Shown: positions 1-13,464 of the stretch, piece after piece | Layout of the letters: every line of letters begins with the position of its first letter | Numbering within the stretch: the stretch's first letter is position 1 | Assembly (NCBI GenBank): GCA_028711765.1 | Contig: JAQTRP010000004.1 | Location: 1-46,284, forward strand | Length of the DNA stretch: 46,284 bases | Direction of reading: 5' to 3' | From: Candidatus Omnitrophota bacterium | GTDB lineage: Bacteria > Omnitrophota > Omnitrophia > Omnitrophales > JAQTRP01 | Notes under the pieces: model-generated | What the model saw: only the letters and a program-made list of their open reading frames with translations | Told to the model about the DNA's origin: nothing | The model's database searches: none | Program-made: the position numbers and the translations under genes

Positions 1-204
1 AAGGAGAAAGGCGAGGATGAGGCTTTCGGTGCCAAGACGCTTACGATAAATGAAAAAACAGTGGTTGTGCCTACGCAATATGGAAGGGTCGCGGATGAAT
101 ACATGAAAAGAGGGATTAAGGTATTTTTTGAGCCGCTAGATGCGACCATCGAATACGGCAGCGGGCCGAGGTGCCTGACGGGCGTATTGAGACGCGATAA
201 ATAA
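1..204 (+). CDS. amidinotransferase-fold protein, C-terminal fragment (array copy 1)
   Basis: The window opens inside this gene; only the last 67 residues are visible, in frame 1, ending with TAA. They match the C-termini of the next three genes: an alternating basic stretch, then the motif YGSGPRCLTGVLRRD, whose Cys sits where the nucleophilic Cys of the amidinotransferase/arginine deiminase superfamily lies. The gap to the next copy is 14 nt and contains its AGGAGG ribosome site, so the genes are very likely co-transcribed. Nothing can be said about the other catalytic residues because they lie upstream of the window. That it belongs to the same paralogous array is certain from sequence; substrate is unknown. 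Confidence 0.85.
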   Translation, partial: KEKGEDEAFGAKTLTINEKTVVVPTQYGRVADEYMKRGIKVFFEPLDATIEYGSGPRCLTGVLRRDK

Positions 205-218
205 AAATAGGAGGTCTT

Positions 219-1208
219 ATGGCGGATGTAAAGCGTGAAATAGGGGTCTCGAACGACTGGGGAAAGCTCAGGGAGGTCATGGTCGGTTATCCCGATGCGA
301 GCATTATAACCGACTATCATTCGTCCCTATCCTGGCTTACCGAACAGATAAAAAAAGAGATGGAGAAGAACGCCGGCAAGATCGATGCCGAGGTCTTTCC
401 GGAAAATGCCAAGAAGCTGAAAAAACAGATCGAGGACCACGTCAAGATACTGGAGGACTTCGGCGTAAAGGTCCACCGCGCGAGGAGGACCTTCGCCCAT
501 CCTGAAGAGGCGGCCTATCTCGACCAGATACAGAGGGGCTGCCAGCCGTTCGGAGGCGAGGATTATTTCAATGTCATAGGAAATAACGTCATATTGATAG
601 ACGCGTTGAGGCCGGTGTTCAGGAGGAAGCAGATCTACCTTGTCAGGCCGGTCCTCGAAGAGATACTCAAGGGCAGCAACGCCAGATACGTGGCCATGCC
701 CCCGCCGTCCCCGCACTACGACGACAAGGAGATGTTCCTGGAAAACGGCGATGTCCTGCGGGACGGCCGGAATATTTACGTGGGATTTTCCGGCCACGGT
801 TCCAGCGAGGCGGGTATAGCCTGGCTTCAGCAGTTCCTGGGCCCGGAATACAAAGTCCATACCATCCGCATGGCTCCGCACACATTCCACCTGGACGCGC
901 TCATGTCGCTCAACAGGCCCGGACTTTTGACCTACTATCCGGAGCTCCTTCCCGACGGATTGCCCGAGCCGCTTAAGAAATGGGAGAAGATCGAACTGAA
1001 GGTGGAGAAGGGCGACATCTGGGCTGCCGCGTGCAATACCCTGGCCCTCGATGAGAAGACGTTGATACTGGCCGCCGAATACAAGAAGTTCGCCGGCGAA
1101 TACGAAAAGAGGGGTATTAAGGTCATAACCTCGAATCACTACGGGATGACGATGTCGTACGGCGCTGGGCCGCGCTGCCTGACCGGTGTACTGCGCCGGG
1201 ATGCTTAA
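219..1208 (+). CDS. amidinotransferase / guanidino-group-modifying enzyme (array copy 2)
   Basis: A 329-residue protein of the superfamily containing glycine amidinotransferases and arginine deiminases. It starts with NDWGKLREVMVG (residues 12-23), like the NEWxxLxEVIVG opening of arginine:glycine amidinotransferases. The putative catalytic set is complete: Asp178 in ENGD, His224 and Asp226 in FHLDAL, and Cys320 in GPRCLTG. Family members attack the guanidino carbon of arginine-like substrates through the Cys. Whether this one transfers the amidino group or hydrolyses it cannot be told from sequence. An AGGAGG site precedes the ATG. It is the second of four head-to-tail paralogues and no biosynthetic partner is visible, so the substrate is open. 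No signal peptide; cytoplasmic. Confidence 0.85.
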   Translation: MADVKREIGVSNDWGKLREVMVGYPDASIITDYHSSLSWLTEQIKKEMEKNAGKIDAEVFPENAKKLKKQIEDHVKILEDFGVKVHRARRTFAHPEEAAYLDQIQRGCQPFGGEDYFNVIGNNVILIDALRPVFRRKQIYLVRPVLEEILKGSNARYVAMPPPSPHYDDKEMFLENGDVLRDGRNIYVGFSGHGSSEAGIAWLQQFLGPEYKVHTIRMAPHTFHLDALMSLNRPGLLTYYPELLPDGLPEPLKKWEKIELKVEKGDIWAAACNTLALDEKTLILAAEYKKFAGEYEKRGIKVITSNHYGMTMSYGAGPRCLTGVLRRDA

Positions 1209-1228
1209 TAAATGGAAGAGGAGGCCTT

Positions 1229-2215
1229 ATGGCAAACGCAAAACATGAAATAGGCGTCTGGAACGACTGGGGAAAGCTCAGGGAGGTCATGGTCGGTTAT
1301 CCCGATGCAACCGTTACGACCGATTATCATCCATGCCTGTCCTGGATGACCGAAGAAATGAAAAAGGGAATGGAAAAGAATGCAGGCAAAATTGACAGCG
1401 AAGTTTTTCCGGAGAACCTGAAGAAGCTGCAAAAGCAGATCGAAGATCACGTCAAGATACTGGAGGATTTCGGCGTGAAGGTTCACCGCGCGCTGAAATT
1501 TTTCGCCCACCCGGAAGAAGCGAGCTTCCTTGATGAGGTGCAGAGAGGCTGTATGCCGTTTCCGGGCGAAGATTACTTCAGGGTTATAGGCAATAATGTC
1601 ATATTAATAAACGCGCTCCGCCCCCCGTTCAGAAGAAAACAGATATATCTGGTAAGGTCCGTGCTTGAACCGCTTCTTAAAGATAGTAACGCCAGGTACG
1701 TTGCCTGTCCGCCGCCCTCTCCGCACTATAGCGAGAACGACCTCTATCTTGAAAACGGCGATATTCTCTTGGATGGCCCAAATGTTTATGTGGGATTTTC
1801 CGGCAATTCCTGCAGCGAAGCGGGTATCGCGTGGCTGCAGCAATTTCTGGGAGAAAAATATAAGGTCTGGACCGTTAAAAAAGTCAAACAGGCATTCCAT
1901 CTTGGCGGGCTTCTGAATATTCCCAGGCCCGGTCTGGTCTTTTATTATCCCGAACTTCTTACCGAAGGGTTGCCGGAGCCGCTTAAAAAATATGACAAGG
2001 TCGAAATAAAAGTAGAGAAAGATGACCGCTGGTGTTTCGGATGCAACAACCTGAGCCTTGATGAAAAGACGGTAGTAGTGCCTGCGGAATACGAAAAGGT
2101 GGCCGTAGAATACCGCAAGAGAGGCTTTAAAGTGATCGGATCGAATTATGATATGACTATAAATTATGGCAGCGGACCGCGGTGCCTGACTGCCGTTTTG
2201 AGGCGCGACCCATAA
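1229..2215 (+). CDS. amidinotransferase-fold protein with altered HxD motif (array copy 3)
   Basis: A 328-residue paralogue of the preceding gene, alignable end to end with almost no gaps. Asp178 (ENGD), His224 and Cys319 (GPRCLTA) are retained. The residue two after the catalytic His is Gly226 (FHLGGL) where the neighbours have Asp. In arginine deiminases this Asp helps bind the guanidinium, so activity or specificity has probably changed. It has an AGGAGG-type site and a 20-nt gap from copy 2. Its first ~50 codons include a 48-nt stretch identical to copy 2, although much of the rest differs at synonymous sites. It could be an inactive subunit of a heteromer, or an enzyme with another substrate. 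Confidence 0.82.
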   Translation: MANAKHEIGVWNDWGKLREVMVGYPDATVTTDYHPCLSWMTEEMKKGMEKNAGKIDSEVFPENLKKLQKQIEDHVKILEDFGVKVHRALKFFAHPEEASFLDEVQRGCMPFPGEDYFRVIGNNVILINALRPPFRRKQIYLVRSVLEPLLKDSNARYVACPPPSPHYSENDLYLENGDILLDGPNVYVGFSGNSCSEAGIAWLQQFLGEKYKVWTVKKVKQAFHLGGLLNIPRPGLVFYYPELLTEGLPEPLKKYDKVEIKVEKDDRWCFGCNNLSLDEKTVVVPAEYEKVAVEYRKRGFKVIGSNYDMTINYGSGPRCLTAVLRRDP

Positions 2216-2230
2216 AAGAAGGAGGGCAAG

Positions 2231-3226
2231 ATGGCTAAAAGCGGACTGAGAATGGTGCATGTAAATACGGAGTACGGAAAGCTTCACGACGCCTTTATAG
2301 GGATCGGCGACCCTCTTATGGTCGACCCTATAAATCACGAATCATTAAAATGGCAGGATAAGACCGCCCTTGAATGGTCGGAAAAATACGGGGGAAAACT
2401 TGTCACCGGGACACGTCCCGCCGAAGTGAAAGAGATGCAGAAAGAGTTCGATGAGCTTGCAGGCATACTTAAAGGAAAGGGTGTAGAGGTATTCCGCAGC
2501 CATTCGCTCAGACACAAAGAAGAGATTACATATCTCGATAATGTCCAGAAGGGCTACTGCAACCATGACGGCTGCGATTTTTTTCTTACGATAGGCAATA
2601 ACGTCATCCTGCTTAACAACCTGCGCACGCCCTGCAGGAGGAAGCGCGTCTGGGCTGTCCGCGACGTACTGGAACCGGTGCTGAAGAACAGCAACGCGCG
2701 TTACGTATCCATGCCGCCCTGTTCGCCGCATTATGACGAAAATGATATATATCTGGAGCGTGGAGACGTCTTTGTCGACGGGCACAATGTATTTGTCGGT
2801 TGCTCGGGCAACGCCTCAAGTCCGGCCGGCATCGCCTGGCTTCAGCAGTTTCTCGGGTCGGAATATAAGGTATATACCGTGAAATTGCCCAGCGAGCATT
2901 TGCATCTTGATATTTTATTGATGCTCAACCGGCCGGGACTGCTTACATATTATCCCGAATTTTTCCCCGAAGGGCTGCCGGAACCGTTAAAGGATTGGGA
3001 AAAGATAGAGGTGAAGAAGCTGGCTACCGACGAGGAGGCGTTTGGCGCAAACGGACTTATGGTCGATCCGAAGACAATGATCCTCGCAAAGCAGTATGAA
3101 CGGCTTGTCCCCGAATACACAAAGAGGGGCATAGAAGTGACGAGCATACCTTTTGAAGTCGCGATACACTGGGGCGTAGGCGTACGCTGCGCTGTTGCGC
3201 CGCTGTACCGCGAAGACGTGCGTTGA
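2231..3226 (+). CDS. amidinotransferase / guanidino-group-modifying enzyme (array copy 4, divergent)
   Basis: A 331-residue paralogue, the most divergent of the array. The opening reads NTEYGKLHDAFIG instead of NDWGKLREVMVG. The catalytic set is complete: Asp179 (ERGD), His225-Leu-Asp227 and Cys320. The Cys context is GVRCAVA rather than GPRCLTG, which suggests a different pocket. The central core (YLDxVQKG, IGNNVILLNNLR, SNARYVSMPPCSPHY, GIAWLQQFLG) is shared with the other copies. GGAGGGCAAG precedes the ATG, 15 nt after copy 3. The next gene starts 37 nt downstream, so the transcript may continue. Function beyond the superfamily is not assignable. Confidence 0.84.
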   Translation: MAKSGLRMVHVNTEYGKLHDAFIGIGDPLMVDPINHESLKWQDKTALEWSEKYGGKLVTGTRPAEVKEMQKEFDELAGILKGKGVEVFRSHSLRHKEEITYLDNVQKGYCNHDGCDFFLTIGNNVILLNNLRTPCRRKRVWAVRDVLEPVLKNSNARYVSMPPCSPHYDENDIYLERGDVFVDGHNVFVGCSGNASSPAGIAWLQQFLGSEYKVYTVKLPSEHLHLDILLMLNRPGLLTYYPEFFPEGLPEPLKDWEKIEVKKLATDEEAFGANGLMVDPKTMILAKQYERLVPEYTKRGIEVTSIPFEVAIHWGVGVRCAVAPLYREDVR

Positions 3227-3263: not shown

Positions 3264-4232
3264 ATGATACGTAAGCTCCGTATTCTCGCAGAAAATTCCG
3301 CATTTTTCATAGCCGTATTGCTTATGTCTCTGTTTGCGGCCGGTCTGCCCGATACGGCGCTGGCCGCGGAGGGCGGCAGCGGATTATATCTGTTGGGTTA
3401 CAGGGTCCTTTTGCCCGGCATCATGCCGGAACCCGGCTTATATTTACGCAACGATTTCTACTGGTACGACGCTTCAGCCGGCGCGGTCATAACGGAAGCG
3501 GATGAGATAAATCTGAATGGCGATCTTGAGACGTTCGCCGATCTTATCACGGTAAGTTATGTTTTGCCCGCGTTGAAGATCCTCGATGCGAATTACAGCA
3601 TCGCGCTGATTATACCGATGGCCCGCGCGAAGATGGGAGGCGATATAAAGATCGCCGGCCAGATAGTCGACAATGGAGTCGCGAAGACTTCCGGCGGCGG
3701 AGATCTTTGCTTTACCCCTGCCTCGTTCGGCTGGCATTGGAACGATCTTCATTGCATTGCCGCCTTATCGATGTTCTTTCCGACGGGGGAGTATAGTAAA
3801 AACAAGGATATCACGATAGGCAAAAACCGCTTTGCCCTCGATCCGAATGTTGCGCTGACATGGCTCGATACGAAACGCGGCCACGAATTATCGGCCGCCC
3901 TCGGCTATACCGTCAACCGGGCCAACAGGGCCACCGATTACAAGACAGGCGATGAGCTGCATTTAGATTTTACAGCCGCGCAGCATTTCCCGTGCGGTTT
4001 GGCGTTAGGCGCCGGCGGTTACTACTACCAGCAGATAACCGGTGATAGCGGCGACGGCGCGCTCATGGGGTCGTCGCGTGGCCGCGTGGTCGCTCTCGGG
4101 CCTGTCGTTTCCTACAGCACGAAAGTAAAGGGCCACGACATAGGGTTGAGCTTTAAGTATTTCCGCGAATTTGCCGATGAAAACCGGTGGGCCGGTAACG
4201 CGTTCTTCTTAACGCTTACCGCGAAGCTTTAA
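3264..4232 (+). CDS. outer-membrane beta-barrel-type protein, phenol-degradation MetA-pathway transporter family
   Basis: The start is set at ATG 3264 (322 aa): GAAGGGA lies just upstream, and the first residues form a signal peptide (MIRKLRILAEN, a hydrophobic core, then ALAAEG). A longer frame from 3195 would overlap the previous gene and prepend an Arg-rich tail. The mature part is rich in alternating aromatic/hydrophobic beta-strand-like segments. It carries SGGGDLCFTPASFGWHWND followed by LSMFFPTGEY, which is typical of the 'MetA-pathway of phenol degradation' (PF13557) barrel family. That name is historical; members are putative outer-membrane channels of unknown substrate. The protein ends FFLTLTAKL, a plausible barrel C-terminus. 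Its position after the amidinotransferase array may be operonic (37 nt). Confidence 0.75.
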   Translation: MIRKLRILAENSAFFIAVLLMSLFAAGLPDTALAAEGGSGLYLLGYRVLLPGIMPEPGLYLRNDFYWYDASAGAVITEADEINLNGDLETFADLITVSYVLPALKILDANYSIALIIPMARAKMGGDIKIAGQIVDNGVAKTSGGGDLCFTPASFGWHWNDLHCIAALSMFFPTGEYSKNKDITIGKNRFALDPNVALTWLDTKRGHELSAALGYTVNRANRATDYKTGDELHLDFTAAQHFPCGLALGAGGYYYQQITGDSGDGALMGSSRGRVVALGPVVSYSTKVKGHDIGLSFKYFREFADENRWAGNAFFLTLTAKL

Positions 4233-4566
4233 TGTATATTTCGCGCGTCAGTAAAAGACGCCACTTTTAAAAGCGCGTTAATTATTAGAATTAGGGGACG
4301 GAGTCCGCTTAGCGCGGTTATAAGTTGTGAGTCATAAGTTATAAGTAAATGCCGTACCCTAATTGACCAAGCGCCTTTTATTTTGGATTTGTTTTTCTTT
4401 GTTTCTATATACTATGGTCTATTAACTATCGACTGCTTTTAAGCGCCCGTCCTCCTACGCCGTTTCGTAGCGGGCCTTCGTAGTTGGCTACGGAGGATTG
4501 ACCGTTTTGTGTTTTGCTTTTTGTTTTACTAAAAACTATATACTAACGACTATATACTGCTTTTAT
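4233..4566 (+). other. gene-free gap with repeats before tRNA-Arg
   Basis: No convincing ORF. It holds a 7-nt-rhythm repeat at 4322..4346 (AAGTTGT, GAGTCAT, AAGTTAT, AAGTA). It also holds a degenerate copy of the tRNA leader at 4425..4450, and an imperfect inverted repeat at 4450..4497 (TCCTCCTACGCC / GGCTACGGAGGA). Several TATACT boxes lie just before the tRNA, but no well-spaced -35 box was found. Confidence 0.6.
4450..4497. repeat. palindromic repeat family A, copy 1
   Basis: Imperfect inverted repeat with arms TCCTCCTACGCC and GGCTACGGAGGA. The same arm sequences recur at 8374..8422 and, with G/C changes, at 29365..29414. Function unknown. Confidence 0.7.
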
Positions 4567-4640
4567 GCGCCCGTAGCTCAATTGGATAGAGCATCTGCCT
4601 TCGGAGCAGAGGGTTGGGGGTTCAAGTCCCTCCGGGCGCG
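4567..4640 (+). tRNA. tRNA-Arg (anticodon TCG)
   Basis: Full cloverleaf. Acceptor GCGCCCG pairs with CGGGCGC; D-arm GCTC/GAGC; anticodon stem TCTGC/GCAGA with loop CTTCGGA (anticodon TCG at 4601..4603); T-arm GGGGG/CCCTC with loop TTCAAGT; discriminator G. CCA is not encoded. It reads CGA and probably other CGN codons. Confidence 0.95.
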
Positions 4641-4648
4641 GGTTGTGA

Positions 4649-11443: not shown

Positions 11444-13464
<2,021 letters not shown>

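Follow-up and report, generated by a model that had tools for sequence, protein, structure and literature searches.

Amidinotransferases of the well-studied GME superfamily (Pfam clan CL0197) use an Asp254-His303-Cys407 triad (PMC3684758), whereas arginine deiminase (ADI) and DDAH carry Glu as the triad acid (PMC11659421). The Asp of the HxD motif touches the guanidinium group in ADI, while DDAH has Lys at that site (PMC11659421). The superfamily also includes NnhA, a nitrohydrolase of 2-nitroimidazole that acts on a non-guanidino C-N bond (PMC11659421).

The window analysed here, a 46,284-nt stretch from a Candidatus Omnitrophota genome, starts at the edge of a contig (C36) and opens with part of a tandem array of such genes. 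Four head-to-tail open reading frames of one family lie on the plus strand, carried within two contigs, the end of contig C7 and the start of C36. Copy 1 has only its 3' end in the window (positions 1-204, 5' open, 67 aa) and is present as a complete gene of 324 aa on C7 (L010:12814-13788); it is followed by copy 2 (219-1208, 329 aa), copy 3 (1229-2215, 328 aa) and copy 4 (2231-3226, 331 aa), all three likewise on the plus strand. Gaps between successive copies are 14, 20 and 15 nt, a GGAGG-type ribosome-binding site stands ahead of every ATG, and the copies share 46-72% pairwise identity, with copies 2 and 3 at 72%. The reading frames, spacing, ribosome-binding sites and identities bear out the first-pass annotation in its claim of four tandem paralogues of one superfamily.

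The 3' end of C7 (L010), from the same genome, matches window positions 1-264 at 261/264 bases. This mismatching overlap fits strain variation at an assembly break, and we infer the C7-C36 join from the sequence overlap. On C7, what stands ahead of copy 1 is no fifth copy but an aldehyde dehydrogenase fragment that matches the C-terminal side of the profile (positions 203-461 of 461). Because C7 supplies the whole of copy 1 with this fragment ahead of it, the array is bounded and has exactly four copies. The count of four proposed earlier is therefore right, but "at least four" is not, and further members upstream, which had been thought possible, are ruled out by the C7 sequence. The aldehyde dehydrogenase gene itself (L010:11780-12750) lacks its N-terminal half and looks like a remnant, since an inverted repeat (GGTGTTAAGTT at 11810 and AACTTAACACC at 11848) lies directly ahead of the break.

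Downstream, a plus-strand gene for an outer-membrane barrel protein (3264-4232; PF13557, Phenol_MetA_deg, E 1.3e-50) with a signal peptide-like N-terminus begins 37 nt after copy 4, matching the barrel protein noted there. It is likely the last gene of the operon: its spacing suggests co-transcription with the copies, and the four copies and the outer-membrane protein probably form one operon. Promoter and terminator scans gave numbers at about chance level. The right-hand bound of the module is a tRNA-Arg(TCG) gene (4566-4641, plus strand), after which comes an ArsP-type permease gene. We also considered an island inserted at this tRNA-Arg with a duplicated 3' end and rejected it, as the tRNA end is not repeated in C7.

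PF02274, the family named in the first-pass annotation, fits copies 1 and 4, which score above its cut-off, but not copies 2 and 3, which fall below it; a PF02274 search of the genome at its threshold missed copies that protein queries recovered. A profile of the clade matches the solved structures of HsvA and SxtG best (E about 5e-27), followed by AGAT (6e-18) and StrB1 (1e-14) and then by ADI (3e-7) and DDAH; overall, sequence matches to AGAT, SxtG and HsvA reach E values as low as 1e-27. The AlphaFold model is weak to modest (pLDDT 59.5, pTM 0.66), and Foldseek with this weak model gives a similar order of SxtG, HsvA and AGAT, then ADI/DDAH. The copies belong to the GME superfamily by an alpha/beta propeller fold (Foldseek matches of the weak model to AGAT, ADI and DDAH) and by their Cys, His and Glu. 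No NCBIfam equivalog cut-off is reached, the arginine dihydrolase model NF052232, for example, giving at most 23.3 bits for array copies against a cut-off of 450, which places them outside any one known subfamily, as had been anticipated. The superfamily is known, but this clade of it is uncharacterised and the arrangement of its genes here unusual; our literature search found no paper on such an array.

Residues D115, E175, H224, D226 and C320 of copy 2 align with D170, D254, H303, D305 and C407 of AGAT, and the structural Asn N273 is invariant. The nucleophilic Cys aligns in all four copies, in agreement with the initial description. The triad acid is Glu in the four copies and throughout their clade, so that the AGAT-type Asp-His-Cys triad (Asp254 in human AGAT) is absent, and at the position just ahead of the substrate Asp (D170/D166), where the other aligned families have Arg, this clade has Ala, Glu or Cys. 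Judged by these alignments, the pocket differs from those of both amidinotransferases and deiminases through loss of this Arg, and the active site looks mixed, with an amidinotransferase-like body, a hydrolase-like acid and the Arg lost. The active-site contexts have diverged as first described, with one correction: GPRCLTG occurs in copies 1 and 2, GPRCLTA in copy 3 and GVRCAVA in copy 4, making three types among four copies. In copy 3, Gly takes the place of the second substrate Asp (HLG for HLD in the HxD motif), while the first Asp and the Cys, Glu and His remain. Because the lost Asp is the one that contacts the guanidinium in ADI, copy 3 is likely to differ in specificity or activity. 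The four proteins may, as first suggested, make up a multi-subunit enzyme or act on different guanidino substrates, and the change in copy 3 gives the most direct hint of specialisation in the sequences. Between copies 2 and 3, dN/dS comes to about 0.11, which indicates that the pair is under purifying selection overall.

In a tree of 24 sequences, with the root placed by choice at StrB1 and another amidinotransferase that lie outside on long branches, the array copies sit inside one clade of ten (support 100/99) without forming one group. Copies 2 and 3 are sisters (100/100) and the only such pair within the array; the sister of copy 4 is a "Proteobacteria" MAG gene (L008; 100/99), and the relatives that surround copy 1 come from other genomes. 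Constraining the four copies to monophyly lowers the log-likelihood by 139 units (AU p 1.15e-9). An array-only clade, and with it simple fourfold duplication in place, is rejected by this test, which settles the earlier question of lineage-specific duplicates against a single expansion within the array. The split between copies 2 and 3 is not recent, given a dS of about 1.8. GC3 is 0.74 in copy 2 versus 0.62 (sd 0.04) across 18 window genes, and 0.56 in its sister copy 3. This pattern fits genes gathered from several sources, other causes being possible.

Homologues are rare: in its own phylum 2 of 384 genomes (this one included) have them, as do 6 of 395 and 7 of 388 genomes (1-2%) in two other phyla. 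No other genome in the order or class sample has one, and a non-exhaustive search with short peptide patterns across 84,980 species genomes gave three loci. Every other genome with homologues carries the gene singly, or two on separate contigs. No comparable array occurs in the genomes searched, and the arrangement is as unusual as the first-pass annotation had supposed. No viral homologues were found. Around the homologues in relatives we found no conserved neighbours; the neighbouring genes vary by genome, so that context points to no substrate. Several relatives (L007, L037, L030, L035, L036, L038 and others) have signal peptide-like N-termini, which are absent from the array copies. Such homologues (L007:1382-2422, L037:286-1338, L030:7947-9146 and L035:8466-9518) suggest, from their predicted N-termini, secreted GME-superfamily enzymes in several phyla. 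One homologue in genome G658 (L031:131-862) is cut near the contig start with one in-frame TAG reported, and may be a pseudogene. Copy 4 also matches (24.6%, 95% of query) a stretch inside an Amycolatopsis plasmid gene (L046:2929-5103) whose annotation reads amino acid-tRNA ligase-related, which suggests a fusion.

In the broadest terms, the best reading of the copies is as Cys hydrolases or amidinotransferases acting on guanidino compounds. More specifically, we tentatively favour cytosolic, diverged GME-superfamily enzymes that carry out deiminase/dihydrolase-type hydrolysis of small guanidino compounds, in a probable operon with an outer-membrane protein. Hydrolysis is favoured because the triad acid Glu, present in all four copies as in ADI and DDAH, is hydrolase-like, and the lack of signal peptide-like N-termini speaks for a cytosolic location. 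Against this reading stand an overall sequence nearer to amidinotransferases than to deiminases, the lost pocket Arg, the weak structure model, the lack of a conserved neighbour that would indicate a substrate, and the lack of a carbamate kinase (TIGR00746) match over the cut-off in the genome, an absence that is uncertain at 91.6% completeness. For want of a carbamate kinase over the cut-off, the classical use of the ADI pathway (arcABC) for energy was rejected. Under the proposed mechanism (residues numbered as in copy 2), copies 1, 2 and 4 would most likely grip the guanidinium of a small guanidino compound with D115 and D226 while the Cys (C320) attacks the carbon of that group; H224, held in place by E175, would serve as general base, and the covalent thiouronium intermediate would then be hydrolysed. 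With the second of these Asp residues missing, copy 3 would probably act on a different or bulkier substrate or have low activity.

The top sequence and fold matches to SxtG, HsvA, AGAT and StrB1 would also suit amidinotransferases of the SxtG/HsvA/AGAT kind, a biosynthetic set with arginine as amidino donor and different amines as acceptors. This is possible but rather unlikely, as the triad acid is Glu and not Asp in the copies and their clade, the RD motif is lost, biosynthetic genes are absent nearby, and StrB1 and the other amidinotransferase fall outside on long branches in the tree, under the chosen root. We consider it unlikely, too, that the operon was assembled, not merely duplicated, from four specialised enzymes, one with an altered substrate clamp, that work as a hetero-oligomer or as a multi-enzyme system on a guanidino compound outside known ADI, DDAH and amidinotransferase chemistry. 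A single hetero-oligomer of all four proteins, with some subunits (copy 3 first) structural or regulatory, is doubtful. Its genes are co-directional and tightly spaced, copy 3 has lost the substrate Asp, and according to the title of a PDB entry the S-alkylthiouronium intermediate still forms in D280A arginine deiminase, so that a subunit like copy 3 could bind without normal turnover; but in copy 3 the first Asp is kept along with the Cys, His and Glu, and purifying selection acts on its pair with copy 2. Improbable last of all is a non-guanidino substrate whose C-N bond would be attacked in the manner of NnhA; one example would be an environmental nitrogen heterocycle, taken up through the barrel protein as a pore. 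In favour are the superfamily precedent, an uncharacterised subfamily and the PF13557 gene downstream, but D115 is kept where NnhA has Trp (PMC11659421) and the barrel gene is not linked to homologues elsewhere.

The array draws attention to a rare clade, uncharacterised although its superfamily is well studied, with what looks like a mixed active site, and four natural variants side by side make specificity directly testable. Among known systems, the AGAT family (AGAT, SxtG, HsvA, StrB1) is the best sequence and fold match, with the positions of Asp170, His303, Asp305 (not in copy 3) and Cys407 kept, but the array has Glu for Asp254, no Arg before Asp170, shorter proteins and four tandem copies. 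ADI (arcA) shares the Glu-His-Cys triad, the LExGD motif and, with copies 1, 2 and 4, HxD, yet its models TIGR01078 and NF002381 give 15-28 bits against cut-offs of 489 and 414, the best stretches are partial, and arcC has no match above the cut-off. DDAH likewise shares the Glu-His-Cys triad, but the dimethylargininase models NF045658/9/60 match weakly (at most 30 bits against cut-offs of 300-450), and the array has HxD (HxG in copy 3) in place of the Lys in DDAH (PMC11659421). NnhA belongs to the same superfamily, likewise to a rare and uncharacterised branch that has Glu-His-Cys; it differs in having Trp for the substrate Asp of the clade, and the sequence search of solved structures gave no match to it.
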